Shown here piece after piece: positions 1,015 through 60,911 of a stretch of DNA of 64,000 bases. The stretch is from NCBI GenBank assembly GCA_030062745.1, contig CP099852.1:18471949-18535948 (forward strand), given 5' to 3'. Each line of letters starts with the position of its first letter. Position 1 is the stretch's first letter. The notes beneath the pieces were generated by a model that saw nothing but the letters and a program-made list of their open reading frames with translations, was not told where the DNA came from and ran no database searches. The DNA comes from Capitulum mitella. Taxonomy: Eukaryota > Arthropoda > Thecostraca > Pollicipedomorpha > Pollicipedidae. A program made the translations under genes and the position numbers.

Positions 1015-1345
1015 ATCGGGCAGCCGTGGACTCCCCCGTTTCTGGTAGGGAACGCAGACTCTCCCGTTTCTGGAGGAGACCGCTGGATTGCACTGTTTTT
1101 TTTTTTTTTTTTTGGTAGACAGCGGTGGACTGCCCTGTTTCTGCTGGACAACGATAGACTGCTCTGTTTTCGGCGGACAGCGGTGGACTGCCTTGTTTCT
1201 GCTGAAGAGCGATGAACTCCGCCTCCCTGGCGGAGAGCTGTGGGCTTCCATATTTCTGACAGAAAGTGGGGGTTCTCCTGCTCCTGGTGCAGAACGCTCA
1301 CCCCTGTTTCTGGTGGACCGCGGTGGCCTCACCTGTCTCTGCAGC
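1015..1345 (-). repeat. Degenerate ~29-bp minisatellite at the exon 19 donor
   Basis: Gene-strand units look like CAGAAACAGGGCAGTCCACC plus about 9 nt. The first unit overlaps the exon end and donor (CAGAGACAG|GTGAGG...). The second again has a GTGAG-like donor (ACAGGGGTGAGC). Spacing is 26-30 bp with one longer unit. An 18-base T run (1096-1113) interrupts the array. It keeps an open reading frame on the gene strand for over 300 nt. Confidence 0.8.
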
Positions 1346-1446
1346 TGCGATGCTCCGTTACTCGGCGCCTCGTCCTTCTGAAACTGGTCCATCATCTCCT
1401 GCACCGGACGACGCACGTGCTCCATGTTGTTCAGGTGGGCGCACAG
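1333..1446 (-). CDS. BAIAP3: Exon 19: last exon found, MUN domain LNNMEHVR
   Basis: 114 nt (38 codons), phase 0 at both ends. Acceptor ...gttctccggcag, donor GAGACAG|GTGAGG. It encodes [20 protein letters not shown] then [20 protein letters not shown]-x-x-LNN-x-EHVR is one of the best conserved MUN motifs. No further exon was found to the left, so the rest of MUN and the C-terminal C2 domain are outside the window. Confidence 0.94.
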
Positions 1447-4400
1447 CTGCCGGAGAACGGTCAGAGAACCTGTCACGTCTCGGAATGACAGTGCAGTGAC
1501 GGACGCTGGAGTCTCCGGCTGGTTTAGCGCACGTGGTGACGGCATTTCCCCAAAAACGGCGGGGCCTTGAAATTACAGTGAGAAACGAAAATTACACCGG
1601 CCACAGCGTGACCGTCTCAATGTGGGGCAATGGAGCAGGATGGACACGGCACTTAATTGCGTCACGCAAGGGCACATCTTTCATGACGTCAAGTCGGAAT
1701 GAGTTGCCGTATTTCTGTAGCTGTAACCAAGCAGGAATACTTTGACGCACAATAAACCTGCTCCCTGCGCAGAGAACATTTGGTATTATCAGTCCAGCAG
1801 ATGCACTGCAGCCCATAAGTGATGGAATGTAACATAAATGATGTTAGTCTAACTAATTAACGGAATCTTCCCAGTAAAAAAGGACAGATGTCAGAAAGAA
1901 TGCAGAATGTCACAAGGTTGCGCTGAAGTCCTGCGATAATCTTCCCTGTCTTCACATTTAGCCGAAGCGTTTCCAGAAAGTGCCGAGGATTTTGTACGGG
2001 GATGTAAGGATTGGAAAAAAAACAGAGCAACTGTTCACTGAACAAGCACGTCAAGATAAAGCAAATGTTGCAAGGAACTTTGGAAAGAGCATATTCCATA
2101 ACAAGGCATTCATCTCATGCAACCTTATGAAGCAATCGATAGCTCGAACCGAAAACTCAAGAACCATTGTTCTTTTTGTGGCTTTCCTGACCTCCGGATA
2201 CATAGCACTGCCCTGCATTGACCTTTGGACACATGGTGTTCCCATGTACCGACCCTAGAGAGATGTTGCTGCCTTCTACTGACCTGTGGAGAGATGGTCC
2301 TCCCCTGTGCTGACCTCTGGAGAGATAATGTTACAATGTACTGACCTCTGGAGGAATGGTTCTGCCCTGCACTGACCTCTGGAGAGATAGTGCTGCCCTG
2401 CACTGACCATTGGAAAGATAACGCTGCTCTGCACTGGCCTCTGGGGAGATGCTGCTGCCCTCTACTGACCTCTGAGGAGATGGTGCTGCACTGTACTGAC
2501 CTCTGGAGAAACGCTGCTGCCCTGTACTGACCTCTGGAGCGATGGTGCTGCCCTGTACTGACCTCTGGAGAGATGGTGTTGCCCTGGAGGAGCTGGGTTA
2601 TCTGGCTGGACCCCCGCTGGTCGATCAGCTCCGCGTAATATCTGGCCCCGGTCACAATGTCCTGACGGGATGGAAGTAAACGTAACGCGGCTCCAATCTC
2701 CCAACAGTGACGAACAGTTCCAAGGAGCATACTGGCTATGTTAATTAGCTAAAAAGGCTAACAATTACTTCACGCACGGGCGTAATATTTGAATGTTGCA
2801 CGAGTATTCAGCGTTCAGTTCTACGGTTTGTTCAACGGCCCGACGCTGCGAACCCCACAGGGGCTCAGAGGCTTAACGCTTCAAAATATACATCATACCA
2901 CGTGTCACAATGCCCGCTGTCGCACGGATCTGGCGTTCAGCACAGAATATGGGTTCTGTGCCATTCAGTGACTCCCAGATCTCACGCCAACAGCCACACA
3001 CTCGAACTCAGACATAACATGGCTTGCCAGGCACAGCTATCAGACGCTGGACATCGCACGCCGATCCACAACTGCAGTCGTACATGACGCCTGCCGACCT
3101 TCACTTCGGAACCACACCGCTGACCCGGGAAACGATTCACAAACGGGGAAACGCCGAGCAGACCAGCTGAACGCCGAACAGACGTCGGAACAATGAACAC
3201 GCCGTTCGAAGGACGGATCGCTGGTCGACAAGCCTCGGTATTCCACCACCATTTCGTGAGCATCGACGAGACCGACAGACCCTGTCCGCGGCCGCTACCG
3301 CCGCTCACAAAAGACCCGCGCGGCGGCCCGGCCGACCTTTTGTCGCGGCCGTGTTTCCGGCGTTTTGTTCGACCTGAATCCAGCCCGCACCAGCGACGCA
3401 CTGATAGCCGCGTGCCGACGCACGAGCAAGGCCGGAGTTTTTACTCTCGCGGCGCGGGCGGAACAGCTGACTGACGCACGCTGCGAGGCAGAGATTACAG
3501 AACGCGAGCAGCGATGGTGTTTCCCTGAGTTTGTGACCCGGAGGATGTTACCATGGCAACACAGGCCAGGCGCAAGGCACGCGCGACACTGACATTTAGA
3601 TGAATGTAATGGAGGCTGTAAAATGAAAAGACCCGTTATGTATCAAAATGGCTTTTGAAAAACGAGCGAGGAAGAGGGGTAAGGAGTCTCCAGTACCTCG
3701 CAAATTAGTCGTTATTTTCTACTACGGCAGGGGTATCGATTTGTGTTCTTTCGAGGGGGCCCTGACCCACCCAGTGTTGGTATGTGCCCCTTCAATGTTG
3801 GTCTGGATCCCTCCAATATTTTCTGACAGTTTTAAAGGGCACTGGGCACAAATAACGAAAGAAACGGCCGCAGTAGGTAAAAGACAGGCAGAAAGTATAG
3901 AATAAGGAATCATGTGATGCATCTGTCTATTTTTCTACCTTCCAGGATATACCTATATACATAGGATATACAATTTTTTTATTTCAAAAATAATAACAAA
4001 ACTCGAATATTTCTATTGATCAAAATAAAGTGGGCTAAATCCACAGAGAAACTCTCATTTGGGGGGAGATCAGGTTGTCGGGCCCACGGCTCGGCCCATC
4101 CATCATTTACAGAAATTGACGCCCCTGTACTACGGCGTATGAACACATAAAACAATGTCCGTCTTTCCAACTCATGCGAGAAAAAAGGTTTCGTGAATCG
4201 GCCAGCGTTATTTGATTACTTTCTACCTACTTAAGCGATGCGTATTATATATTTTAGCTGAAAAGTACCGGGCATGTTTGAAGTATTCATACGCACATCC
4301 GACTCTGAGGACGTAGCATTGCATGTTCCACACAGGGCCGTGCGCGCTCACCTCCAGCAGTTTTTCCCGCAGACTGTGGGCGTCCAGGTGAGAAGGCCAC

Positions 4401-7400
4401 TCCAACTGATTCCAAAACTCTCGAACCTGAAACGAATTACCTGCTTCACGTAGGTTTCAAACCGGTTTAAACACCCCCACGCTTCACGAAGCGAACTACT
4501 CGTCTGCAGTGCTAGATTTTTCTGCGGTCTTTCCCTGCATCAAGTGCTCCGTATGCCAATCTGCACGCGCCTCGATCTTCGCTCACTGTTTGGCTCGTTA
4601 CGTCAGAGCGTGACCTTGTTGCGTCAGAGATACCCCGCACCCGTCTGAGCTTTTTATCGCAAAGTCTTTGTTCATTTGTCTATTGTTTGCGTTCAGGCAT
4701 ACGCCTGTTCAGTTGCTCTCAGCTGGTAAATTTGTCCCTTGGTTCAGTGGCCTTCCTGAGGTTTCCGGTGGGTGTTCGTGCTCTGGTTTCTTCGTGCTCT
4801 GAGGTTTCCGGTGGGTGTTCCTCCAGATCTCCAATAGCTACGTGTTGCTCTATGACTGATTTCTTTCTATTTATGGAAGCACTGAGCGTTCCAACACCAG
4901 CACCTCGGAAAAGGGGGGGTTTGACCTTAAGTCATGGCAGCAGTTTTGGAGAGACAACCATAAATGCGGTATGGCGAAGTAGCTGAGGCGTCGCTGCGAT
5001 TTTACCATAATGTTACCTTCACCTTGACCTAAGCATAAGCGTGACCTCACCTTAATCTTAGCCAATGTGGACTGACCTGTGACCCGACCCGGCTCACTTG
5101 ACCTAGTCACGACCGGATCTGACCGTTGACCATGTTCACCGTAGTCTAAATGGTTTCGCCTGACCTGGTCTGGCCGTGACCTCGTTTGACTGTGACCTGG
5201 CCTGATCCCAACCGTGACCTGGTCCGACCTGATCTGACCCAAATTGGCTCGATTTTGATCTTTGCTGACTTGACCAATGACTGTGACCACACCCTGCCCT
5301 GATCTATCCTACTGTTATGTAACTTGACCACCACCATGTTCTAACCCCGCCCTGCCCTAACCTGGCAACCAACGTGACCTGACCCCACCCTACCCTGACC
5401 TGAAAACCATCGCGGCCTGACCCCGCTCTGCCCTGACCTTACAACCACCGCTGCCTGGCCCGCCCTGACCTGACCCGCCCTGTCAGCGACCTGCGGACGC
5501 CGGCTGACCTGATCGAAGCAGGAGGCGACGTCTAGCGCCGCCGAGCTGTGCCGGACGTACTCTTCCCTCTCGGAGAGCCGGTCCAGCTCCACAGCCTTGC
5601 TGACGCGCCACAGGATCTTAAACCGGGCGATGTCCAGCCACCTGGGGCACCGCGCGTCGGCCTCAGTGCTGACTACTGAGTAGTGAATACTGATATGTGT
5701 TATATGCATAAATATGTACGTGTACGTATGTGTATGCATGTATGTATGTATGTATGTATGTGTGCATGTATGCACGTATGTATGTATGCATGCGTGTATG
5801 TATGTATGCATGTATGCATGTACGTATGTATGTATGTAGATGTATATATGTATGTATGTATATAAGTATACATGCCTGTATAAATATGTACGTTACGGGG
5901 AGTGGCAGACTAGAGCCCAGCGAAGAAGCTCATCTCCCGTGGAGGAATCACAAAAGAGCGTCAGCGGCTAGTTGAAAATTCCTCCTTCGGATAGTTTTTC
6001 ATACAGCACATCAAGTGAAGTCTCATGGCAAGCAAGAACAAACAAGCCGGTTTGTTTGGGTGACCCTGGGTCAGGTTCACAGAAGCAGCGACTAACGGCC
6101 GCCGGTGTCGCTGGCAGGCGGTCAACCTAACTGGACACTGGATCAGCCTGTCGACCAATGAATCCACCTGTGAGCCTCTGGATCCGCCTGTGGACCTCTG
6201 GACCTGCCTGTTGACCACTGGATCCGCCCGTAAGCGTCTGGATCCTCACATGAATCTCCAGACCTACATGCAAACCGCCGGATCCATCGTTGGCCACTGG
6301 ACCCGCATGTCAACCACTGGACCCACTTTTCAATCACTGGATCCGCCGGCTAATCACTGTATCCCCCTGGGAGCCTCTGGACCCTCCCGTGAACCTCTCC
6401 AGCGCGGACGCCAGACGGTCACCGTTCGGCGACGTCTGGATGCAGACGGACGAGCGCCGGCCTGTCCACCGTGACGCCTCAATCCCATCATCAGCCGGAC
6501 GCGACCCCAGCGGAGAGGACTCGCGGACCCGCCGCTGCCGGATCCATTAGTCCCGAGAGCTGACGCCGCGTCGGGCTCGACGACGTCCTGCCGCGCCGCC
6601 GCCGTCTGCAAATGCCGCGTCCGGCGGGGGCGGGGGAACACCGGTTCTGGGGCCCGGGAGGGAGGTATCGTGACGGGGTCGGTCCAGGTGAGGTGCCTGT
6701 GACGGCGGAGATGTGGCAGAAAAGCCAGGCGAAAAAAAGAAACGTCAGTCTTGTACGGGAGGTATGGTATAACATGAAAAGCGTGCCGCCGTACTGTTTC
6801 GGAACGTGTAACGTTTAAGAACTGTACCGTCTGTGCACAAACGTAAAATAGCAGTGCTCAGAAGCAAGGAACAAATCATTTCCATGAATGCCCTGAGTAC
6901 TGAATTTACAAAATCACTGTCCGTCGAGCAGTTTAAACTACTTAACGCAAATTTAATGTTCTGCTTCCAAACTCCCGGTCAGAAAGCGCGTCCGTCTCAA
7001 AATAAGGCTGATCGACCAAAACATGGTTCTGGTAGTGGCCAAACAACAATCAAACCCTCATTTACCTCACTGGTTAAGATTTGCTACCGCCAGTTCCTTC
7101 AGGGGGAAAATTAAGAACAATATCTGACCGAACGCCAGGCTCTCAGACTGTACGTGTTTCGCGATACTTTCGCGTATCTGTACTTGTAACGATGCGTAAT
7201 TCAAACTGGCTGTTGCTGACTAATCGGATTTCTCCTCGGAGCTTCTGCTGAGTTGGTCTCAAATGAGGACGTTTACGAACTGACAGTGTGCAGTGCCACT
7301 GTGAAGAAAGCTCCTTAAACTGAGGCCCACCACATTGTCGATTACAGTTTCATCAGGTAAATGTGCGCGGCCATTTGGCTAGCCCGGCCAGCTTTGAAAC

Positions 7401-16400: not shown

Positions 16401-19400
16401 CCCGCCACCAGCCGGCGCGTCGTCAGCTGTTGCTTCCGCCTCAGACTTCAACAGCAGATCCTGACACCGGCTCATCCAATCACCGCGTTTGATTGGCCGA
16501 CGCGCGAGGCGTGACGTCACCCTTCGACCGACAGCTGGCTCTGTGATCTCGATAACCTTGACCTTCGCCAATTATGCAGGGCGCAGACCGCGGAGCGTTG
16601 CGCGCGAGGGCGGCGCGCTTCTGTGACGCAGGTACTTACACCGCTCGCTATCGCGTGCCCCGTGGATGTAGCAGCGGCGGATTTACAATTCATCGGAGGC
16701 CGCCGGCATTGTTATTGATAAAATGCAGCCTGCCGAGGCGGCGCAACCCTTTCGCGATGTTGAGGAGAGCTCTACACGTCATCAATCGACGTGAAGTACC
16801 ACCCGATGAATTATGGAATGCGGTGCATCTATTTTGCATTCATCCCGAATGATTTATGGCGGTAAAAAAGTCGAGTGTGTTTTGCCTCGCTGAGGTGTCT
16901 GGACCAGTTCAGCCTGGATGGGCGTTGGTTAAAACGGACCCCGTCGAAGGGAAACGGTGCTTGGTTTTCCAGTTTATGCGATCCCAGGGAGCACTTCCAT
17001 TCAAACCGATATACCTGTTACGATGAAACGGCATACTAATGATTGCCTGACATGGGTGTTCCACGACATGTATAGCTGCATGTAGCATCCTTTACCTGCA
17101 ACTCCTATAACTGCGTCCTTCGGCTGCATGCACGTTTTCGGAATGCATGGGCCGAAACGCTTACACAGAAGCATTTACAAGACGCCGTTGACCTGCGAAA
17201 CTCTCATGGTTATAACTGAAGGATCCCCGTTGACTTCTAAAAATGGTGGTAAAACGGAAATCCCTTAACTTTCCGAGGGGAATATGCCAACAGCAAGCCA
17301 AGTTTATGCAAATTAATGTGACACGTGGCAGTGTTTTTCAGCCTAATCTCTTCATTACATATGCCGCGTTAATAATGCCGATATCGGGATGGGATTTCTG
17401 TTTTCTTGTTTATACTGCCACTGGCAAACATATGACATGGTCCGCTGGTGGCACACATTGGAGCGGAGCTAACGTAAAGGTAGCTCGCTGGTGCAAATTT
17501 CCTCGAACAAATCTATGTTGGGTAAATGTTTGTCTTTAGCTGGAGTGTTTGTCTAATGTTGTAGACGGAGACAAAATGGATGGATCAAAGTTCCGAAGTA
17601 GAAAGTCTATATAAGTAGCCCTCATCAAGCCCGAATTCGACTCGCACTCGGTGAGATGAGAGACAAGGAACAAATATAATTTCATGGAAAGGAAACGAGT
17701 TTTTGTACCTCCTGCATTATGCAAAATTTCCATGAATTCGGCGACGGCTGATGTAGGAGGATGCTGGTTGACGCCAATATTTCATGAATAGGAGCGAAGC
17801 CCAAACAGTGAACTAAGTGTGACCGGAAGAGCAATATCTCTAAAAAAGTAAATTGCTGCTTAATTTAATAGTGGTTCTGAGAAACTAAATCGGTGATATG
17901 ACCAGATTAGAACAGAACAATAGGTTAGCGAGAAGTGCTCTACCGTGCCGTACCTGAGCTGCAAAAAAATCTGTCACGCTTTGCATATCTGCACCTGTGA
18001 GTATTTTGCCGTCGCTTTCTCAATGCCTGCCACTGGTAGGACACCTGTGCGGGAAGACTGCCTGCGCGTGATCCGCACACGTGCGCGCGCGGTGCGCTGT
18101 GGCGTGCGCGCGTTGGGCTCACTTGTAGAGGTCCTTGGTGGCCATGTAGAGCTCAAAGGTGGCCGTGCCCATGGTGAGCGACATGGCGTCGGGTGTGGTG
18201 TTCAGCTGAATGTCCGAGCTCTGCAGCTCGCTGCAGAGTCGGCCCACCGTCTCGCTGATGTCGGCAGACACCTGGGGAGCGCGGGAGAGGCTGCTCACCG
18301 AGGCATCGGCAGAGACGTCAGCTCACTGAGACAGTGACTCGCTGAGACGGCGACTCACTGGGATAACGGCTCGCCGAGACCTCAGGTCACTGATATGACG
18401 GGTCACCGGAACAATAGGTCGCAGATGCACTTGCCACTCACTCGCCAAGGCTTTAGCTCACAGAGACATTGACTCGCCGAGAGGTCGGCCCACGGAGACA
18501 CCGACTCGCCGACATATCGGCTCACAGAGAGGTCGACTCACCGAGACAAGGCTCACCAAGACATCGGCCCACCGGGACAACGATTCATAGAACTACCGGC
18601 GAGCTCAAGACATCACATCAAGGCATCTGTCCATCGGGACGTCGGCCCGCCGGTGGATTTGGTTATGTAACAAGACAATGGTTCCGGCGAGACACCTGCT
18701 AACGTGACATCTGCCCGCCAACATTGAAAGCGCTGTTGTTGGCACGTACACATAATGCACAGCGTCCACCTGCTGCCCATTCCGCCTCGAGCGGATAAAG
18801 GGTGCAGTCTCGGCGCTGATTAATCCTGTCCCTCAACAGAGCTCTCCCGCGAACAAACAAGACGAGGTTCGAAACAACGCGCCAGGTGCCACCGAAAGAC
18901 AAACAGGCCGGCGTTGCGCCAGACGGTTGATGCCGGCCACACGACATCGGGGTTCCGCCCCGTGCTCGGAAAGGCACACCAGGGGGTTTAAAGCACTGCT
19001 CCTTCTGATGCCAGCACTGGGTCTGGTCGAGGAGAGGCCTCTGGATTTTGCAGGCGGCTTGGTCTTAAGGGCTACAGCTCACAGGCGTACCTCTTTCAAC
19101 AGGGCAAAAATGCACACGCTCATCAGCCCAAAGGCATCGACACGACCACACAAGGACAGAGTCTGTAGCCCATCCGCACGGACCGCGTGATTCTTCATTT
19201 CCCGACGGGGAGCGGTCAGGCGAAAACTTTGGAGTTGGAGAAAAACTTTGGAGAAAAAAACTCCGTCCCTTTGGAGGGACGGAGGAGCAATACACCCCTC
19301 ATGCAGATCATGCAGCGCTGTCAGCGAACAACGTCGGTTTGTGGAATATGCAGGCATCCTTTGAGGGCCGCGGTAAGAAGTTGACTTTGATAATGAAAAA

Positions 19401-37020: not shown

Positions 37021-37052
<32 letters not shown>

Positions 37053-37102
37053 GTGCATATATCTATGTATATATATGTATATATCTACATCTATATCTAT
37101 AT

Positions 37103-37170
<68 letters not shown>

Positions 37171-49100: not shown

Positions 49101-52100
49101 GTCCGATGACATGTGCAAAATGTAACGTTATCATTATTAGCCCTTGTGGACTTCAGAATGATTCCCAAAGATTCGTTTCAGGCCAGCTTCAGAGTGTTTT
49201 GATGCATTGACCTAATGTTTCCGGCTCCCTTGGACGGCTGATGACGCGTCTTTAGAAGCAACGCCCAGTCAAAGACGCAGTGCCAGGGAACTTTGCCGCT
49301 GTGCTCAAAGTGACCTTTGCTCCATTGTTTCATGAAAAAACAGGCTGACGTCGTGACATCGATTACGTCTGTCTCGCGTAAGGACAGGCTGTGCATCCGT
49401 GGCCAGCTATACTTTGGAGCGGTATTTGTCGGTGACTTACGGTGCCTGTGCAGGTGTTCCGTCCTGTGCTGTTTAGACAGAGTGAGGGTGTGTGTCGAAT
49501 ACCTCTGCTGCGTCGCGGTGTTGGTCGGGTTTTTCGTTGTGAGAGCTGAAATAAGCTGAAATGTTCGGTAGGAGTCACCAAATAACCTGCATTGTGCGTA
49601 GTTTACCGGTTCGCTAACTTGTGATGCTTGGGCGGTGTGGGTGTGCTGACCTGCTGTGTTCGTGGAGTTGCGTGGTTTGTCGGTGCGTTTACCTGCGGTA
49701 TTTGCGCAGTTTGTCGGTGCGCTCACATGTGATGTTTGCGCGGTTTGTCGGCGGGCTCATCTGCAGCATTTGCCCAGTTTGTCAGTGCACTCACCTGTGA
49801 CGTTTGCGCAGTTTACCGGTTCACTCACATGTGATGTTTGCGCAGTTTGTCGGTTCACTCACATGTGATGTTTGCACATTTTGTCGCAGCGCCCACCTGT
49901 AATGTTTGCACAGTTCTTCGGTGCATTCAGCTGCGATATTTGCGCAGTTTGTCGGTCCACTCACCTGTGGTGTTTGCGCAGCTTCTCTGTGTGCTCGCCT
50001 GTGATGTTTGCGCAGCGTGCCAGTGTGCTCACCTGTGATATTCGCGAAGTTTACCGGTGCGTTCGCCTGTGATGATTGCACAGTTTATTGGTGTGCTCAC
50101 CTGTGATGTTTGCATACTTTGTCTGCGCACTCACATGTGGTGTTTGCGCAGTTTGCCGGTGCGCTCACTTGTGATGTTTGCGCAGTTTGTCGGTGCGTCG
50201 AACTGAGATATTTGCGCAGTCTGTCGGTGTGCTCAGCTGGGATGTTTGCGCAGTTTGTCGGTGTGCTCATTTATGGTGTTTGTGCTGTTATTGATGCGCT
50301 CTCCTGTGGTGTTAGCGCACTTTGTCTACGCGCTCATCTGCGAGGTTTGTGCAGTTTGTCGGTGCTCTCATCTGCGGTGTTCGCGCAATTTGTGGATGTA
50401 CTCGCCTGTAATGTTTGAGCAATTTACCGGTGCTCTCACCTGTGGCGTTTGCGCAGTTTCTTGGCGTGCTCACCTGTGGTGTTTCCGTAGTTCGTCAGTG
50501 CGCTTACATGTGACGTTTGCGCAGGTTGTCGGTGCGCTCATCTGTGGTGTTTGCGCAGTCTGTCGGTGTGCTCACCTGTGATGTTTGCGCAGTTTGTCGG
50601 TGTGCGTGTTCAGCTGGCGCTCCTCGCCGTCCTCCTCCGGCACGCTGGAGCGGCCGCTCCTGGGCGACCCAGGCGGAGTGCCCCTCTCCGTCGCGCCGAG
50701 GGGACCGGCGCTGCCCGGAATGATGCCCAGCATGCAGTAGGGGTCGCTGAAACCTGCGGCAAAGGTCACGCCGCGGAGGAGGTCAAGGTCACGCCCGGAA
50801 AATCAGGTGTCGACGATTTCTGGGCGCTGGCTGACGGGAGCGGTCTCGTCACGAATCTTATGACAACTCATGCACGCCTGCCGCGAGGAGTACGTGTAAG
50901 TTGCAGCCTTCAAGTGTCAAAATGACGGCAAGGTCGCCAGCTTTCGACTTGTATCGATTCGCCGGCGCTGGCGTTTTGCCAGCGGGCGGAGCTTGCGCCA
51001 AACGTGGCCTGAATCGCGCGAGCGGCCCACAGGCTGGCATGCACTTGTTCCACGGCATGCAGTCTTTCAGCATACCCCCGTGAACATTTGCGTCCGAAAG
51101 GACAAAATCTACGCGCTGGTTACGTTCAAGTTATGGTGCATTCTTGCTCGAGGGAGCTGCCATTCCACAATGGAATGCCTCCGCGATAAAGTGGTGCCCG
51201 ATCGTGTTACAGCATCGTAAACAATGTCAGGCCATATGCACTGGACGAGGCAGCAGACCTTCACGGAACTTTCACGAACGGGAACATACTGTGCCGAATG
51301 CATGCCAGAAAGGCATGCAAGACCAGTGGCACAATGGAAGCGGCAGGAGCGGCTGCAAAAGTGCTTGAAGCCTTTGTTCTTCGGGAGATGTTGTCAACAG
51401 ATTCTGTGGGACTGAATATATAAGCTGACTGTTATAAGCATTAGCATTCGTCGACCTGATAAACGTGTAAAAGAGTCATGCGATTCATATCATTAGGCGT
51501 TGGTTGCCGACGTTTGGTTGCGTTTAATTCATGTTCGTGGGATAATTCAAGGGGCTGGTGATAACAAAGCTTCTGACATCTTTTCAGAAGCCGACATGGT
51601 AAAAATTGCACTACGCTTTAACTTGATACCATACAGCACCATACCATATCATGAAATCATGCCATAAAACCTAGCAATTAAGACAAAAATATTTTTCAGT
51701 ATTACGGTAAACGAGAAAATGTTCGCTGTCACACCTTTCTCGTTTGCGCCTCTTCAGTTCTACGCATCTTTTATAAATATCTCCCTCTTTATTTTTAAAC
51801 ACCTTCCTGTCTGGATACCCTCCTTTGAATTGCGTCGGAATCCTCGTTGGTTTCCTCTCTATTTCCGTTCGCTTTGCTCCGGCTCCCAGGAGAATTCCAC
51901 GAATTCCACCCGTTTCCCAATCGCCGAAAGCCCACCTGCAATGCCCCGGCTCTTTTCGACTGCGATGCGGCACAAATCTACCCCTCCCCCGCCCATATCC
52001 CCAGGCGCAGCTGGCGCCGCCGGACGGCGAGGACAGTTTCATCCCGTGCCACGCAGCGGCAGCCGTGAGCTGAATAAAAACGCCGTCCGACCCGCCCGGC

Positions 52101-58100: not shown

Positions 58101-60911
58101 TGTTCTCATTGGCCTTCTTACTGCGCAAAGGTCACAAGGATTTGGCTCGGCGCGATTTATTGATTTTACGACGGAAAGTTCTGTTCGATCCCACAGCTCT
58201 TTCTGTAACGCCACACGCGCGGGGTTTTAACGGAATGAAGCGCAGGGAATTATAGATGCCGTTTTCTCTTCCTTCCATGACAATTTTAACATTTCTGCAA
58301 CTTATGGACTAGTTTTAAATACCTATCGGCGCCAGTATTTTACGGTATCTAGTCTGTGCAAGACTGGTTCGATACGTGCAAGCTGGTGGAGGCTGGAGAG
58401 CGGAAATGGAAGCCAGTGACTAGACCATGATCTTGGTGTGAAACAATTAACCCCTGCCGCTGCCGCGCCCCGGTGAATGAGGAAGACATGCAAAGTCCGG
58501 TGTGTGGCATATGCTGACTTCGGGTCCCAGAAGTGGCGCCTGTGGCTCGAGACCAAAAGGGCCCATCGGTCACGAGTCGGCCGGGGCGTGGAGTTGCACG
58601 GCATGATAAATAGTCTCAGACACCATTTGGTTCGGTGTCGGGCGCTTACTCCATTTTGGGGAACACTCAGCTACGGATCGGCATTCGGCAAAACCTTGGC
58701 TTAGCATGAACTCTATTCTCGGCGTTTCCTTCTTCAGTTCTTCGGTCGCCCGGGCATCAATTTATATAAAAGTTATTTACAAAGTTCTTTGCCTTCGAAC
58801 TGATTCTCTTCATCCCTGATGAAGTTACTCCTTCCAGTTCGACGAAACGTTATAAAGAGATACGGCACGCAATTTATTTCTGCCGAACAATGATTTTACT
58901 TAAAAACAAATCGTGGTAAAAAATGTGTCAGGCGCAGATGCACAAGAACGTTCTTCATCTGCCTATGTGGTGTCAAGCTGCATCATCATGGGTCATGCTT
59001 GCACATCTCGAGGGAGATGTTCAGATTGTCTCCCGGAGCAAATAACGCATCCGAATTTATTTGACATAGTTTTTCCTGCATAAGTGGCGTTTAAGTAAAG
59101 GCGCTAAAGAACCAGCATACGACTTTAACGGTAAGAAACCGGGGAAAACGACATGCCTCATTTCCTGAGAGTCTTTCAGGTTAAGTGACGCCATCCAGCT
59201 GTTGCTTTTCCGTGGAGCATCTGGTGACAGTGGCAAATTTTCGCCGGAGAGACAGCTGGCGCAAGTGCCATCTGATGTGTCTGCGAGTTGCGTGAATCGC
59301 AATCGTCATCTCACTTGACTGACTCCGCCGTTAAATGTCGGCAGAGCAGGACACGTAGATGAGGAATCAAAATTACGCAGAAACCTCTGTTTCATGCAGG
59401 AGAGGGTCGAAGAAAACATTTACTGCCCATTCGTTGCACAAGAACCGGAATCGTCTCCGACATTTTCTCGCGGGGAAGAGGTGGAGGGGAGGAGAGAGGC
59501 AACGACTGGACGCAAATGGAGTCGCACATGTGTGGCAGTGCTAGCCTGTTTGACATCGCACACAGCTTGTTTGACTCCGTCACAGCGAGTCTGCTGTGAC
59601 GGAGAGCGAACTTCGGCAGGCTCCATGGCAGTGATGGATGTGGCCCCACTGGAATCTTGCCTCGTCCAAAGGTGTAACGTCATCGAAGACACAGCGTCGA
59701 GACGCCGACAAGGCCAAATTACATCGCAGTCAAACATCGCGAAAAATGCGTCAAGACACACGGAAAATTCACACATGTCCGGGAGCCATGCAGCACACAG
59801 GCGAAGAAATGCCACGGATGCGAGCAGACTGTTACCGGCTGTGCCGGGCAGAGGCAGGGCGGGGTCCTCGGCGAAGTAATGAGAATCGGGCACCTCGGAG
59901 AACTCATGCCAACCGGGCACTATGCCCATCATACAGTACGGATCACTAAGGCCTGAGGAACAACGGCAAAGGTTCGCGAGTCACCCACTAACGGTTCAGA
60001 AGATGCGGCATCTGAGATGCAGCAAATGCAAAGCAGGTACCGAGACTGCTCATGGCATAGCAGTTTATACATAATCCGACTATCAGGTACGGTTACAAGC
60101 CCAACTTTGTGCAACGATGCTTAGTTTGGTTGGATTTAATACCTGCCGTCTGCGTGTCAATAGTTGCAGTAACCCAAGCAACACACTAACGTAAGGCTAC
60201 ACAACACACAAGCAGTTATTCGTATGATGGTATACAAAGGAATTAGCCGGATTCAGTAAATGATGGAAAATTTGGTATCCCCACCCTTTGTTTTGGAATT
60301 AACACAAACTTTTTCGCCAGAGAAATGAAATGAGAACACGTATTAGAAATAGCCATTGATTATGGACAACAATGTATTCAGAATCACTTAGCAAAAGCAT
60401 TCTTGTCTCTTCGAACATCCACTTTTTTCGCTACAGGAAACAAAGGAAATGATAACAACAGAAGACCAGAGCATGTTCGATGAGTGCACGACTTATTTCA
60501 TGCACCGAAAAGGTTTACATAAAAAGGCATCTGAAAAACGAGGAAAAGGTACGCAAAAAGGTGAGTTTCTAGAAAAGACCGCAATGTTTTGACGAATATA
60601 ATGGACATTTCCCGTGAAAAACAAGAATCGGAACAGTATCCTTCGAAAAGACTTTCAGAAAATCTTCCCCCTCTCCGAAAAGCCAAAAGTCAGGGTTCAA
60701 CAGCACAACAACGACCATTCAGCCTACGGCTGCACACTACATCGGAAGTTTCCCTACAACATCTAGCACAGTGCAGCTTCTGACTACGACAACATTAACG
60801 GAACATTAACACGCCGAGCAGGGCCGCCCCACTGAAGGACCTACCGTCGGCGTCTTTCGCCTCCAATCCATTCGCCTCCACGACCACCAGGTTGAGAATC
60901 ACGATGGGCGG
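1333..60911 (-). CDS. BAIAP3: Unc13-4B/BAIAP3-like Munc13 gene, 19 exons in window, both ends missing
   Basis: Nineteen minus-strand exons join in a single frame (60845-60911, 50576-50753, 47041-47235, 40558-40602, 36225-36387, 34189-34301, 33840-33930, 31448-31546, 30459-30581, 28913-29037, 25736-25843, 23782-23922, 23421-23472, 18123-18271, 8112-8195, 5509-5668, 4352-4426, 2563-2661, 1333-1446). They total 2181 nt, or 727 codons, and every junction has a GT donor, an AG acceptor and compatible phase. The product has an N-terminal C2 domain (exons 1-6) with calcium-loop aspartates, then a MUN domain (exons 7-19). Recognisable landmarks are [27 protein letters not shown] and LNNMEHVR. Family knowledge: these proteins act at vesicle or endosome membranes with syntaxin/SNAREs to prime dense-core-vesicle or granule exocytosis. 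Vertebrate BAIAP3 is roughly 1,200 residues, so about 150-200 N-terminal and 300 or more C-terminal residues lie outside. UNC13D is the alternative paralogue. The long insert of exon 5 favours BAIAP3/Unc13-4B. Confidence 0.93.
2217..2584 (-). repeat. 31-bp minisatellite spanning the exon 18 donor, about 12 copies
   Basis: On the gene strand each unit is the last 22 nt of exon 18 plus the first 9 nt of the intron. The recognisable core is ccagaggtcagtacagggca. Around seven copies keep an intact AGAG|GTCAG donor. The unit is 31 bp (1 mod 3), so it is read in all three frames cyclically, giving a 31-residue repeat with no stop through most of the array. Copies farther from the exon are more diverged. 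Confidence 0.92.
2563..2661 (-). CDS. BAIAP3: Exon 18: MUN domain, [13 protein letters not shown]
   Basis: 99 nt (33 codons) if the first donor is used, phase 0 at both ends. Acceptor ...catcccgtcag, donor CCAGAG|GTCAGT. It encodes [20 protein letters not shown] then [13 protein letters not shown]. The DI-x-x-x-A-x-x-YAEL pattern is a MUN landmark. The last 22 nt and the donor are tandemly repeated in the next intron, so the true 3' end could lie in a later repeat copy. Using the first donor keeps phase with exon 19. Confidence 0.9.
2662..4351. other. Intron between exons 17 and 18
   Basis: Contains the hAT-like element at 3728-4127. The stretch 3260-3490 is GC- and CpG-rich with spurious open frames on both strands. 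Apart from these I see nothing. Confidence 0.6.
3728..4127 (-). mobile_element. hAT-like nonautonomous element, copy A (400 bp)
   Basis: The ends are CAGGGGTATCGATTTGT and ACAGAAATTGACGCCCCTG, imperfect terminal inverted repeats beginning CAGGGG. A perfect 8-bp target duplication, tactacgg, lies at 3720-3727 and 4128-4135. An 8-bp duplication and CAGGGG ends are hallmarks of the hAT superfamily. It has no coding capacity. Related copies lie at 35497-35863 and 44826-45215 in the opposite orientation. Confidence 0.9.
4352..4426 (-). CDS. BAIAP3: Exon 17: MUN domain
   Basis: 75 nt (25 codons), phase 0 at both ends. Acceptor ...cgtttcag, donor CTGGAG|GTGAGC. It encodes [20 protein letters not shown] then EKLLE. 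It follows CFDQ of exon 16, as the family's CFxQ(I/V)RxFWxxLxWP motif requires. Confidence 0.94.
5040..5508 (-). repeat. Degenerate GGTCAGG-rich array starting at the exon 16 donor
   Basis: The gene strand from the donor leftward is a run of roughly 35-40-bp degenerate units containing GGTCAGGGCAG and GGGGTCAGG, with many CAG|GTCAG donor-like steps. The array begins within a few bases of the true CAG|GTCAGC donor. Farther left it grades into shorter TGACCTG-type repeats. Confidence 0.7.
5509..5668 (-). CDS. BAIAP3: Exon 16: MUN domain
   Basis: 160 nt, acceptor ...cagtagtcag chosen over two nearby AGs because only it keeps frame. The donor is GATCAG|GTCAGC. It encodes [20 protein letters not shown], then [20 protein letters not shown] and [13 protein letters not shown]. 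The W-x-x-x-A-R-x-K-x-x-x-R-(I/V)-x-K-A-V-E-L-D pattern and the SSxAxD-x-x-x-CF motif are strong Munc13 MUN signatures. Confidence 0.95.
5704..5865. repeat. (ATGT)n microsatellite
   Basis: About 160 bp of interrupted tgta/tgca tetranucleotide repeat in the intron just upstream of the exon 16 acceptor. The methionine/cysteine/tyrosine or histidine/threonine open frames seen here are repeat artefacts. Confidence 0.95.
6130..6412. repeat. 20-bp minisatellite
   Basis: About 14 degenerate units of the type ctggatccgcctgtggacct, spaced 20-21 bp, in the intron between exons 15 and 16. It is not adjacent to an exon. Confidence 0.85.
6413..8111. other. Rest of intron between exons 15 and 16
   Basis: A GC-rich block at 6380-6700 with open frames on both strands, then unremarkable AT-rich sequence. 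I see no exon or RNA gene. Confidence 0.5.
8112..8195 (-). CDS. BAIAP3: Exon 15: MUN domain
   Basis: 84 nt, acceptor ...cttgcccgcag, donor GCCAG|GTGAGG. The first base completes Lys from exon 14, giving TKDLYK-LGEHLP. It encodes [20 protein letters not shown] then WFSPAVA. The last two bases complete Ser with exon 16. The preceding intron is about 9.9 kb. Confidence 0.93.
9195..9350. mobile_element. hAT-like MITE (156 bp)
   Basis: The ends CACCGGCGCAGCCA and (reverse complement) TAGGGGCGCAGCCA are 11/14 matched inverted repeats. The flanks atggaaga (9187-9194) and atggcaga (9351-9358) match at 7 of 8 bases. The 8-bp duplication supports hAT. The interior is C/G-tract rich and non-coding. Confidence 0.75.
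14605..14937. repeat. Diverged tandem duplication of ~165-bp unit
   Basis: Two successive segments (about 14605-14772 and 14773-14937) share, in order, a GTTGGTG-x-CGTTTT start, GTC(A/G)TCCCTCG(A/G)GTTCTGA, TTTTGAT-GGATGTAAG, TTTGTGACGA-GGT and GGAACTCCCCA. They are clearly diverged. No coding frame is shared. Confidence 0.75.
15368..15442 (+). mobile_element. tRNA-derived SINE head
   Basis: Contains an A box (TAGCTCAGTTGG) and a B box (GGTTCGAGTC) at tRNA-like spacing. The anticodon and acceptor stems do not pair well, so this is not a functional tRNA gene. The tail beyond 15442 is unrelated to tRNA and its end is not visible. Polymerase III promoter boxes plus degenerate stems suggest an old tRNA-derived SINE. 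Confidence 0.65.
15815..15998. repeat. 32-bp minisatellite
   Basis: About six units containing ggtggtctgagctcggtctg, spaced about 32 bp with some shorter units. It lies mid-intron. Confidence 0.88.
18123..18271 (-). CDS. BAIAP3: Exon 14: MUN domain
   Basis: 149 nt, entry phase 0, exit two bases. Acceptor ...gcgctccccag, donor TACAA|GTGAGC. It encodes [20 protein letters not shown], then [20 protein letters not shown] and LYMATKDLY. The segment [12 protein letters not shown] aligns with the F-x-(I/L)-Y-x-x-(L/T)-K helix of Munc13 proteins. Confidence 0.95.
18272..18720. repeat. Short-unit array abutting the exon 14 acceptor
   Basis: Degenerate units of about 16-20 bp built on ctcaccgagacatcggc begin within 30 bp of the exon 14 acceptor and run about 430 bp upstream in the intron. 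Some words (gctgatgtcggcagacac) also occur at the exon edge, but derivation from the exon is not clear. Confidence 0.7.
18721..23420. other. Rest of intron between exons 13 and 14
   Basis: About 4.7 kb. I see no exon, RNA gene or bounded repeat. A short GC-rich segment at 21900-22230 has open frames on both strands but no recognisable product. Confidence 0.5.
23421..23472 (-). CDS. BAIAP3: Exon 13: short MUN exon
   Basis: 52 nt, acceptor ...gcgccttctag, donor AAACTG|GTACGT. It encodes [17 protein letters not shown] after completing Gln from exon 12. The VPYF-x-x-(I/L)-YKxL motif is typical of the MUN domain. The intron between it and exon 12 is only 309 nt. Confidence 0.92.
23473..23781. other. 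309-bp intron with CT tract
   Basis: Intron between exons 12 and 13. It contains a 29-base CT-rich run at 23669-23697, which is a GA run on the gene strand. Confidence 0.85.
23782..23922 (-). CDS. BAIAP3: Exon 12: MUN domain, His/Asn-rich segment
   Basis: 141 nt, acceptor ...gccgtcgcag, donor ATGCA|GTGAGT. It encodes [20 protein letters not shown], then [20 protein letters not shown] and HNQLFM, with the final Gln codon completed by exon 13. Confidence 0.93.
23923..25735. other. Intron between exons 11 and 12
   Basis: About 1.8 kb of unremarkable sequence. The phases of exons 11 and 12 join directly (TG|G, Trp). Nothing else recognised. Confidence 0.7.
25736..25843 (-). CDS. BAIAP3: Exon 11: MUN domain
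   Basis: 108 nt, acceptor ...ccggccgacag, donor GAGTG|GTGAGT. It encodes [20 protein letters not shown] then [15 protein letters not shown], and the last two bases complete a Trp codon with exon 12. Spacing and phase agree with both neighbours. Confidence 0.93.
25844..28912. other. Intron between exons 10 and 11
   Basis: About 3.1 kb. It contains a short C/G tract at 27908-27929 (possibly the end of an old MITE). No bounded feature was found. Exon phases join directly (AA|G, Lys). Confidence 0.65.
28913..29037 (-). CDS. BAIAP3: Exon 10: MUN domain
   Basis: 125 nt, entry phase 0, exit two bases. Acceptor ...tccttttcag, donor CTCAA|GTGAGC. It encodes [20 protein letters not shown], then [20 protein letters not shown] and LK. 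It is rich in Lys/Arg, with an aromatic helix ([13 protein letters not shown]). Confidence 0.93.
29038..30458. other. Intron between exons 9 and 10
   Basis: Its donor-proximal 210 bp is the purine/pyrimidine tract described separately. The remainder, including GC-rich 29690-30120 with spurious open frames, shows no exon. Confidence 0.65.
30240..30453. repeat. Homopurine (GAGA-rich) tract next to the exon 9 donor
   Basis: Plus strand is about 85-90% purine, dominated by gagaga and gggaga. The gene strand therefore has about 210 nt of CT-rich polypyrimidine starting a few bases after the GTGAGG donor of exon 9. Such tracts can form triplex DNA and bind polypyrimidine-tract RNA-binding proteins. 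Here that is only a possibility. Confidence 0.85.
30459..30581 (-). CDS. BAIAP3: Exon 9: MUN domain
   Basis: 123 nt (41 codons), phase 0 at both ends. Acceptor ...cgatgccgcag, donor GAAGAG|GTGAGG. It encodes [20 protein letters not shown], then [20 protein letters not shown] and a final E. A long polypyrimidine tract starts directly after its donor. Confidence 0.93.
30582..31447. other. Intron between exons 8 and 9
   Basis: 866 bp. I see no bounded feature. Confidence 0.7.
31448..31546 (-). CDS. BAIAP3: Exon 8: MUN domain helix
   Basis: 99 nt (33 codons), phase 0 at both ends. Acceptor ...aactgccgccag, donor CAGGCG|GTGAGT. It encodes [20 protein letters not shown] then [13 protein letters not shown], which fits the W-x-L-x-x-x-A-x-x-x-L-H-Q-(H/Y)-A-V-Q pattern of the family. 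Confidence 0.92.
31547..33839. other. Intron between exons 7 and 8
   Basis: 2.3 kb with the MITE at 33512-33771 and an 11-base G run near 32135. Otherwise AT-rich, nothing recognised. Confidence 0.65.
33512..33771. mobile_element. hAT-like MITE (260 bp)
   Basis: Flanked by a perfect 8-bp duplication, aatgtaaa, at 33504-33511 and 33772-33779. The ends CCGTAGTGTAGTCAAAGG and (reverse complement) CAGCAGCGTAGCCAGAGT are imperfect inverted repeats. G/C tracts sit just inside the left end. No coding capacity. It sits 69 bp from exon 7's donor. Confidence 0.85.
33840..33930 (-). CDS. BAIAP3: Exon 7: linker and start of MUN region
   Basis: 91 nt, acceptor ...cgccattttcag, donor TTCCGG|GTAAGA. It completes the Arg codon from exon 6 and encodes [20 protein letters not shown] then [10 protein letters not shown], a predicted amphipathic helix entering the MUN domain. 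Exit phase is 0. Confidence 0.92.
34189..34301 (-). CDS. BAIAP3: Exon 6: last strands of C2A
   Basis: 113 nt, acceptor ...ccttcttcccag, donor GACCG|GTAAAC, entry phase 0, exit two bases. It encodes [20 protein letters not shown] and then [16 protein letters not shown]. The D-WF-LE-R-S--VQG pattern is the conserved end of the C2A domain in BAIAP3/Unc13-4B. Confidence 0.95.
34302..36224. other. Intron between exons 5 and 6
   Basis: 1.9 kb with the hAT-like copy B (35497-35863). The rest is AT-rich without recognised features. Confidence 0.65.
35497..35863 (+). mobile_element. hAT-like nonautonomous element, copy B (367 bp)
   Basis: Same family as copy A (shared words include TTTAGCCCACTTT and TGATCAACAGAAAT). 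The ends are CAAGGGTGTCAATTTCTGTA and TACAGATTGACACCCCTG. The 8-bp flanks atccacac and gtccacgc match at 6 of 8, consistent with an older insertion. Confidence 0.82.
36225..36387 (-). CDS. BAIAP3: Exon 5: C2A loop 3 and family-specific helical insert
   Basis: 163 nt, acceptor ...cctttctccag, donor CTGCAG|GTGCGC. The first G completes the Trp codon begun in exon 4, giving [18 protein letters not shown]. The loop 3 aspartates are followed by the long insert ([18 protein letters not shown]) and then [12 protein letters not shown]. This insert and the DDFLGC strand are diagnostic of BAIAP3/Unc13-4B among Munc13 proteins. Confidence 0.95.
36390..36642. repeat. 79-bp tandem array abutting the exon 5 acceptor
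   Basis: Two clear copies of a 79-bp unit (anchored by cgcaggtcacgaggtctc at 36497 and 36576) and a degenerate third copy next to the exon. All are rich in AGGTCAGGTC. It lies immediately upstream of exon 5 on the gene strand. Together with antisense exon 5 and the TA run it creates a 384-codon artefactual open frame on the plus strand. Confidence 0.85.
37021..37168. repeat. (TA)n microsatellite
   Basis: About 150 bp of nearly pure TA with a central interruption. It can extrude cruciforms and is a likely polymorphic site. Confidence 0.97.
37195..37869 (+). mobile_element. piggyBac-like nonautonomous element, family 2, copy 1 (675 bp)
   Basis: Flanked by TTAA at 37191-37194 and ttca (a mutated TTAA) at 37870-37873. 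The ends CCCTGGCTGAACGAGAGG and (reverse complement) CCCTCGCCGAACGGAAGG are inverted repeats beginning CCCT. TTAA targets and CCC termini are typical of piggyBac-type elements. The interior matches 62860-63475. No transposase. Confidence 0.78.
38505..38585. repeat. (ACAT)n microsatellite
   Basis: About 80 bp of interrupted acacat/atacat repeat. Confidence 0.9.
40558..40602 (-). CDS. BAIAP3: Exon 4: 45-nt exon, C2A strand leading to calcium loop 3
   Basis: 45 nt between acceptor ...gtgtttcag and donor ATATG|GTAAGC, entry with one base and exit with two. It encodes [15 protein letters not shown], which bridges EEKFRL of exon 3 to DHDDE of exon 5 exactly as expected for this family. The small size hides it from ORF-length searches. 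I located it because the phases and the missing C2 strand required it. Confidence 0.92.
42411..43597 (+). mobile_element. piggyBac-like nonautonomous element, family 1, copy 1 (1187 bp)
   Basis: Lies between TTAA at 42407-42410 and TTAA at 43598-43601. Ends CCCTATTCCCGG on both sides (inverted), plus a subterminal inverted TTCCCGGCAGGGGGG. Interior non-coding and TGACCT-rich. It is followed head-to-tail by copy 2, sharing the central TTAA. Confidence 0.85.
43602..44824 (+). mobile_element. piggyBac-like nonautonomous element, family 1, copy 2 (1223 bp)
   Basis: Starts ACCTATTCCCGG (first C mutated) after the shared TTAA and ends CCGGGAATAGGG before TTAA at 44825-44828. It aligns along its whole length with copy 1 in the same orientation with high identity by eye. 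No coding capacity. Confidence 0.85.
44826..45215 (+). mobile_element. hAT-like nonautonomous element, copy C (390 bp), split at its left end
   Basis: Interior matches copies A and B (TGGATTTAGCACACTTT, ACTGCGGCCATTCTTT). The left end TAAGGGCATCAATTT is a mutated CAGGGG end. Its target duplication was displaced: ttgcacct at 42400-42407 and ttacacct at 45216-45223 match at 7 of 8. This shows the piggyBac-like pair entered a TTAA created at the hAT end. Confidence 0.78.
45641..47040. other. Intron sequence between nested elements and exon 3
   Basis: About 1.4 kb without recognised features. AT-rich left part; short TGACCT words near 46810-46850. Confidence 0.55.
47041..47235 (-). CDS. BAIAP3: Exon 3: C2A with Ser/Ala/Gly-rich insert
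   Basis: 195 nt. I chose the acceptor ccgccggcag because it restores the phase left by exon 2 (AG+C gives Ser), yielding [14 protein letters not shown]. The donor is CGGCT|GTGAGT. After a low-complexity insert of Ala, Ser, Thr and Gly, the conserved segments [20 protein letters not shown] and EEKFRL appear. They match the C2 strands around the NP-W motif. The insert is probably a surface loop. The 3' half is certain; the exact 5' end is less so. Confidence 0.88.
47236..49589. other. Intron between exons 2 and 3, non-array part
   Basis: Includes a CpG-rich block at 48190-48450 with open frames on both strands, but no splice-bounded exon. The rest shows nothing. Confidence 0.55.
49590..50603 (-). 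repeat. 34-bp minisatellite spanning the exon 2 donor, about 30 copies
   Basis: On the plus strand the unit is recognised by tgcgcagtttgtcgg... and recurs at exactly 34-bp spacing (for example 50518, 50552, 50586). On the gene strand each unit equals the last 28 nt of exon 2 plus the first 6 nt of the intron, so each unit carries a copy of the donor. At least six further copies besides the true donor keep an intact CAG|GTGAG (near 49790, 49960, 50028, 50097, 50436 and 50470). Others have lost the GT. Copies become more diverged toward the left end. Confidence 0.92.
50576..50753 (-). CDS. BAIAP3: Exon 2: C2A middle, [10 protein letters not shown] plus Ser/Pro-rich loop
   Basis: 178 nt, entered with two bases of a Gly codon and left with two bases (AG). 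Acceptor ...tttgccgcag, donor CACAG|GTGAGC. It encodes [14 protein letters not shown], the highly conserved C2A strand 3 of Unc13-4 proteins. A Gly/Pro/Ser/Arg-rich loop ([15 protein letters not shown]) and an acidic stretch follow, ending in HTDKLRKHH. The final 28 nt plus the first 6 intron bases are the founding unit of a roughly 30-copy minisatellite in the next intron. Confidence 0.93.
50754..52442. other. Left part of intron between exons 1 and 2
   Basis: No bounded feature. 51900-52200 is GC-rich with spurious open frames on both strands. Confidence 0.55.
52443..52777. mobile_element. Possible MITE with G-tract ends (335 bp)
   Basis: Left end CACTGGTGGATCC then a 17-base G run (52458-52474). 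Right end, reverse complemented, CATAGCGGCTCAGG with an 11-base G run and a similar following block. The arrangement is an imperfect inverted repeat. I found no convincing target duplication. Confidence 0.45.
53930..56205 (+). pseudogene. Decayed transposase-like gene of an invertebrate mobile-element family
   Basis: Successive plus-strand fragments in changing frames line up in order with an uncharacterised protein I recall as repeated in many invertebrate genomes. They are [14 protein letters not shown] (~54030), [19 protein letters not shown] with GRRGFMMG (54310-54440), [19 protein letters not shown] (~54645), [10 protein letters not shown] and SSNTG (54900-55075), [14 protein letters not shown] (~55140), [20 protein letters not shown] and RDDYRELVE (55225-55415), then [19 protein letters not shown] (~56070). 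The SNTG...H-x-IFE region suggests an RNase H-fold DDE-type domain (inference). At least four frame changes and several stops (one TAG near 55186) make it non-functional. No terminal repeats or target duplication were identified. It lies antisense in a host intron. Confidence 0.7.
56206..59835. other. Intron sequence between the pseudogene and the duplicate exon
   Basis: About 3.6 kb without recognised exon, RNA gene or bounded repeat. Confidence 0.5.
59836..59952 (-). CDS. Duplicate or alternative C2A exon (second copy of the exon 2 start)
   Basis: After the acceptor ...gttcctcag the frame reads [19 protein letters not shown], then a new tail rich in acidic and proline residues. This is plainly homologous to the [13 protein letters not shown] start of exon 2, and the sequence just upstream (cctttgccg) is shared with exon 2's acceptor region. 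Entry phase is identical to exon 2. The best donor is GCCG|GTAACA at 59836/59835, giving 117 nt. Its exit phase (one base) joins exon 2 but not exon 3, so it looks like an in-frame cassette rather than a clean mutually exclusive partner. No in-frame stop occurs over these 39 codons. It could be a used alternative exon, a cassette that disrupts C2A, or an exon duplicate that lost its tail. The homology is clear; expression is unknown. Confidence 0.55.
60845..60911 (-). CDS. BAIAP3: Exon 1 in window: start of C2A, strands 1-2 and calcium loop 1
   Basis: 67 nt, entry phase 0, exit after one base. The acceptor is a pyrimidine-rich ...cttccag and the donor reads GACG|GTAGGT. It translates to [20 protein letters not shown] followed by A-D-G, the classic first strands of a C2 domain. 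They run into loop 1, where the KDAD aspartates would bind calcium. It splices in phase to exon 2 at 50753 (giving ADG-FSDPYC) and equally well to the duplicate exon at 59952 (ADG-LSDPYC). An upstream exon must exist because entry is mid-protein. I could not find it before the window's right edge. Confidence 0.9.

Follow-up and report, generated by a model that had tools for sequence, protein, structure and literature searches.

Probable mirage-type minisatellites across 5' splice sites of an unc-13D-like gene and of unrelated genes in an arthropod genome

Mirage minisatellites have been described from the amphioxus genes Adh3, globin, PGBD5 and TnC, and the available text of these reports states that regular splicing is undisturbed (PMC3087553, PMC3902484). 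The excerpted part of one of them gives unit lengths of 10-72 bp in Adh3 and of about 150-160 bp in the globins (PMC3087553). Comparable structures are mentioned in partial texts on human segmental-duplication genes, with units of about 30 bp at exon-intron boundaries and 27 intron modifications (PMC2812944), on introns gained through tandem genomic duplication (PMC4974935; the Rogers model is cited in PMC3087553), and on the intronic minisatellites CeRep25B of C. elegans, which are linked to alternative splicing (PMC4039745). The arrays analyzed here are located at donor sites of an unc-13D-like gene and of several unrelated genes of an arthropod.

The unc-13D-like gene and its donor-spanning arrays

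The window, a stretch of 64,000 nucleotides at C14:18471949-18535948 with a GC content of 0.496 and a CpG observed/expected ratio of 1.02, belongs to an assembly of 477,042,490 bases in 16 contigs. Its minus strand carries, at 1333..60911, an unc-13 homolog D (Munc13-4)-like gene with a C2 followed by a MUN domain, represented by a partial exon model in which exon candidates were obtained by ORF and splice-site scoring and 20 donors were picked by hand. The translation of the exons, concatenated by hand, matched the Pfam C2 and MUN families (4.8e-10 and 1.3e-9, respectively) and PDB entry 9la9, unc-13 homolog D (3.3e-45), along three collinear stretches. A search with the MUN family returned no match in the window, probably because the exons were matched one at a time. 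The C2-domain exon at 50576..50753 (minus strand), called by ORF and splice scoring and by alignment to unc-13D, ends in AG|GTGAGC and leaves phase 2, with which the next exon candidate (47235-47041) is compatible. Two MUN-region exons on the same strand also align to unc-13D, namely 2563..2661, ending in GAG|GTCAGT, and 5509..5643, an ORF call with an approximate start that ends in VASCFDQ. Exons 59952-59836 and 50753-50576 are two versions of one C2-domain exon, possibly alternative or duplicated exons, and the former harbors a 27-bp tandem duplication (59866-59920) within its coding sequence.

Two donors of this gene are spanned by minisatellites. The first array detected by TRF (W1; 49668..50602, minus strand) consists of 27.5 (about 28) copies of a 34-bp unit and spans donor 50575; its unit, GCGCAAACATCACAG|GTGAGCGCACCGACAAACT, extends from some 27-30 nt within the exon into the intron, the minus-strand junction reading ...CGCAAACATCACAG|GTGAGC.... 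The second (W2; TRF, 2187..2586, minus strand) comprises 12.9 (about 13) copies of a 31-bp unit, ACCATCTCTCCAGAG|GTCAGTACAGGGCAGC, which starts some 24 nt within the exon and spans donor 2562, with the minus-strand junction ...ACCATCTCTCCAGAG|GTCAGT.... The 30 nt around the junction are repeated one unit downstream with 27/30 (W1) and 29/30 (W2) identities, against a null in which random window positions reach at least 24/30 in 1.9% of 3000 draws. The ungapped overlap with the exon is 30 and 24 nt, respectively. Wherever a unit includes protein-coding exon sequence, the duplication that nucleated the array must have extended across the junction.

A third minisatellite, with a 38-bp unit (5344..5482, minus strand; TRF rows 5344-5475 and 5454-5482), lies 30-33 nt downstream of donor 5508; its best junction match of 16/30 is ordinary in the null, so that spanning of this donor is not supported and the array is classed as adjacent. 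The other 17 of the 20 modelled donors gave junction matches of only 13-16/30 and revealed no further spanning array. The original observation of at least three and possibly four arrays including the exon end thus holds for two donors (50575 and 2562) of this partial model, while the array near donor 5508 does not demonstrably span it and no fourth case was found among the 20 modelled donors. When tandem repeats of period 10 or more were grouped into 18 clusters (TRF rows merged by hand; row 5842-5887 left out as part of a microsatellite), the first unit of two clusters spanned a modelled donor with at least 5 exon nt, and that of the remainder, including those at 1118, 6136, 15816, 18312, 36473 and 45556, spanned none. 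Two or more spanning clusters occurred in 0.9% of 20,000 circular shifts (mean 0.14; P = 0.009), a post hoc value for a window picked for looking odd, so that the weight falls on the genome-wide tests. The array at 18312-18580, with a 16/32-bp unit and rich in GGTGAGTC-like words, precedes the acceptor of exon 18271-18123 and has no visible exon ahead of it.

Donor arrays in other genes and the anatomy of their units

The sequence preceding the first copy was read for each of 12 listed arrays of the word CAGGTGAG on contig C1. By our own reading, nine directly follow a coding exon (L022, L023, L030, L082, L083, L087, L088, L090 and L091) and two more plausibly do so (L084 and L086); no exon was visible before L089, nor before L085, a thirteenth C1 array from the single-word list. 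Eight of the nine exon translations were compared with Pfam and four matched, to F-box-like (4.6e-17), CAP-Gly (3.1e-16), dynein AAA_8 (7e-13) and ALMS (5.2e-8) families; the other five exons, namely the four without a match and L023, which was left out of the comparison, were called by reading alone. For the CAP-Gly, dynein and ALMS exons, the matched domain extends up to the final residue ahead of the donor and ends mid-profile, as expected where an exon truly ends. Among the 12 listed C1 arrays, the longest (L035/L091, C1:4794690-4796793) is a donor-spanning array of a 45-bp unit that extends over about 2.1 kb with 46 listed triple matches.

A second sample, of MUN, kinase and myosin exons, was chosen by homology without regard to arrays and comprised 68 loci, of which 55 had a candidate donor and 57 a candidate acceptor; some of the 55 candidate donors, in long single-exon kinase matches, are dubious. 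A clear donor array was found at one of the 55, the myosin-head exon L115 (E 1.1e-22), with a 45-mer unit and the junction GGATACCCGTCCAG|GTGGGC, versus none at the 57 candidate acceptors. An 18-mer of 2.1 copies at another myosin donor (L102) was marginal and was excluded as a case. At locus L009, which holds a MUN exon on C5, a 45-mer array (1230-1484) stops 19 nt before the candidate acceptor, adjoining the 3' boundary without crossing it. Donor arrays are thus present in several unrelated genes, which supports the proposal of a genome-level habit.

Unit length ranges from 23 to 49 bp across the 14 arrays examined, and 13-35 nt of upstream sequence lie inside the unit at nine of them (W1, W2, L023, L030, L082, L084, L086, L091 and L115). 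The ungapped upstream share amounts to 28-31 nt at the F-box exon (L030), 32 nt at L091, 22-35 nt at L082, 30 nt at L084, 17 nt at L023, 16 nt at L086, 13-18 nt at the myosin exon (L115) and 10 nt at the CAP-Gly exon (L088); at L022, L083, L087 and L090 the ungapped match covers just 2-8 upstream nt, a count that does not support an exon origin. A unit lying across the exon-intron boundary and including exon sequence, which defines a mirage, was found at 50575, 2562, L030, L091 and L115.

Eleven of the 14 units are not multiples of three, the units of L115, L091 and L082 being 45 bp long. In W1 a TGA codon follows immediately when the frame is read beyond the first donor, but in W2 the frame remains open for 435 nt and the argument from stop codons accordingly fails; at L115 (371-570) read-through continues for 118 nt without a stop, which means that the next donors, if used, would add in-frame residues. 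Use of later donors would thus be expected to break the protein mostly, but not always. In W1 the downstream GT copies are conserved at 0.79 compared with 0.83 for the rest of the unit (28 copies), which we read as the behaviour of inert passengers, and the donor positions are somewhat better conserved than the rest in W2 (0.91 vs 0.83, 11 later copies) and L115 (0.96 vs 0.83, 3 copies). A test of donor-position conservation over all 14 arrays (Wilcoxon P 0.004) was discarded, as 11 of them had been found via intact donor words. The unc-13D alignment crosses the 2562 junction with a one-residue gap, a matter of consistency only, since the query was pre-spliced at the first donor.

Word counts and the origin of the arrays

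Across the whole genome, three occurrences of CAGGTGAG separated by gaps of 10-40 gave 1090 matches (604 + 486), compared with 89 (67 + 22) for the reversed pattern. Because one array yields many matches, distinct arrays were counted by position: 12 on C1 among the matches listed, which reach up to C1:43.7 Mb, and 22 for the reversed word in the whole genome, none of them on C1. As a single word, CAGGTGAG occurs 22,952 times, words within arrays included, and its reverse 9,377 times. The array rate per word is consequently about 0.57% (the 12 listed C1 arrays in 43.7 Mb, scaled to the genome) versus 0.23%, a 2.4-fold difference. No clear excess was seen for CAGGTAAG, with 22 matches (8 arrays by our own count) for 10,260 words versus 9 matches for 13,117 reversed words.

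We consider it likely, with a probability of about 0.7, that these arrays are mirage-type minisatellites, presumably tolerated owing to splicing from the first donor, and that their nucleation is possibly subject to a modest bias. A short segment across the exon end and its donor would have been duplicated in tandem, and the array would then have grown and diverged within the intron, every unit being a copy of the coding end plus donor. If the upstream-most donor is the one used, the protein would remain unchanged and the other copies would be inert intron sequence. Such arrays may have originated independently in a number of genes of this arthropod, where minisatellites are common and donor-spanning duplications would be tolerated; donors of the CAG|GTGAG type may in addition be subject to a mutational bias of modest size.

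Whether donors themselves favour duplication separates two further readings. The first, a narrower form of the reading just preferred, involves no donor bias at all: minisatellites would arise everywhere in a repeat-prone genome, more densely near genes, those spanning donors would merely be tolerated, and the word excess would reflect gene-rich, GC-rich surroundings. It falls slightly short of even odds in our judgement, and accords with the presence of 18 clusters (period 10 or more) within the 64-kb window, with a corrected excess of only about 2.4-fold overall, with the result for CAGGTAAG and with the single array at 55 candidate donors of the homology sample. Against it stand the C1 counts, with 12 arrays seen versus 5.1 expected at the control rate for all CAGGTGAG words (Poisson P 0.007), and with 9-11 donor-linked arrays versus 3.0 predicted from the control rate per word if the excess of 13,575 CAGGTGAG words represents donors (Poisson P 0.004 to 0.0003), as well as the acceptor word TTTGCAGG, a single word which showed no excess (1 match vs 18 reversed, counts uncorrected for word abundance). 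The second reading, a true donor-specific hotspot at which GTGAG donors or co-transcriptional splicing would provoke local tandem duplication, is possible, though we would rather wager against it. It draws support from likely CAGGTGAG donors, where the excess is 3- to 3.6-fold, from the difference between a donor and an acceptor word and from the presence of two arrays within one gene, whereas the effect depends on the word and the control density is unmatched for genic context: control words are genome-wide averages, so that denser arrays near genes would mimic a donor bias. The statistics favour a modest bias of donors towards provoking duplication, with the enrichment concerning one 8-mer, CAGGTGAG, and controls unmatched in this respect. 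A mechanism that repeatedly nucleates arrays at donors, as originally proposed, is supported only moderately, by the excess for CAGGTGAG and its likely donors, with no clear excess for CAGGTAAG. A bolder version, according to which GTGAG-type donors in this arthropod lineage are mutational hotspots that nucleate tandem duplications, perhaps in connection with transcription or splicing, and have repeatedly turned 5' intron ends across the genome into minisatellites, seems unlikely to us.

Two explanations of another kind fare worse than simple tolerance of donor-spanning duplications. The arrays might be relics of intron gain through tandem duplication of an AGGT-containing exon segment (the Rogers model; amphioxus globins), as suggested by exon-derived units starting at the donor and by the description of this model in the available part of PMC3087553; the next exon candidate after W2 (1446-1333), however, lies about 740 nt past the array and is unlike the unit by eye, and we regard such an origin as improbable. 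Still more improbable is a function of the arrays, for instance as banks of U1-binding donors or as alternative sources of exon ends. Many copies do retain a good donor score, a property for which the C1 arrays were selected, and the three 45-bp units together with the open read-through at L115 and W2 would suit such a role, but the GT copies of W1 show no extra conservation, its read-through stops at once and most units are not multiples of three.

Lineage and relation to known systems

The arrays had been suggested, if correctly recognized, to point to amphioxus as the lineage, and this did not survive: at least 150 matches to the cuticle-domain family PF00379 indicate an arthropod. This family is typical of arthropods and, to our knowledge, is restricted to them and absent from amphioxus. 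The 16 contigs and the arthropod gene content both agree with a barnacle, a number of 16 chromosomes not being diagnostic, as it is also recorded for bees and thrips. In the accessible text of the respective genome reports, the genome of Capitulum mitella comprises 463 Mb in 16 chromosomes (PMC8416341), another assembly of the same species measures 512 Mb (PMC11331182), and the Pollicipes genome 770 Mb (PMC8917513). A search for barnacle cement protein 20k gave weak matches (best E 0.046), three of six within 25 kb on C1, and four contig ends of 400 nt, inspected over their first and last 130 nt, showed no telomere repeats. Since mirage-type arrays occur in an arthropod, they are unusable for identifying a lineage.

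In one open-access library, no description of donor-spanning arrays in an arthropod was found among the titles and opening lines of abstracts listed, and no paper on barnacle intron minisatellites was found. The arrays provide naturally occurring sets of competing 5' splice sites in tandem, in which first-donor choice could be tested, as well as material for modelling how introns grow and are gained.

Among the described systems, judged from the available parts of the reports, the C. elegans CeRep25B repeats are likewise intronic minisatellites near splicing decisions, but are not described there as donor-spanning or exon-containing (PMC4039745). In tandem-duplication intron gain the duplicated segment also carries AG/GT; there the duplication creates an intron, whereas in the present arrays it seems to have extended the 5' end of an intron already in place (PMC4974935). 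The human segmental-duplication minisatellites resemble the present arrays in their repeat units of about 30 bp and their location at exon-intron boundaries, but concern recent paralogues with variable repeats that alter transcripts, whereas here the arrays lie in unrelated genes (PMC2812944). The closest likeness is to the amphioxus mirages, and the comparison originally drawn with them was right as to structural class, as far as the excerpts of those reports go: in both, the unit lies across an exon-intron boundary, diverged copies carry splice signals and units are short, here 23-49 bp in 14 arrays (PMC3087553, PMC3902484). The present arrays differ in belonging to another phylum, being arthropod and known from genomic sequence alone, and in that the cases found were all donor-side and distributed over several unrelated genes, whereas the amphioxus reports, in their available parts, treat single genes and include 3' boundaries. 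In the literature covered, mirages have so far been an oddity of a few cephalochordate genes; their presence in several arthropod genes, together with a genome-wide signal, suggests that this structure arises independently and in numbers.
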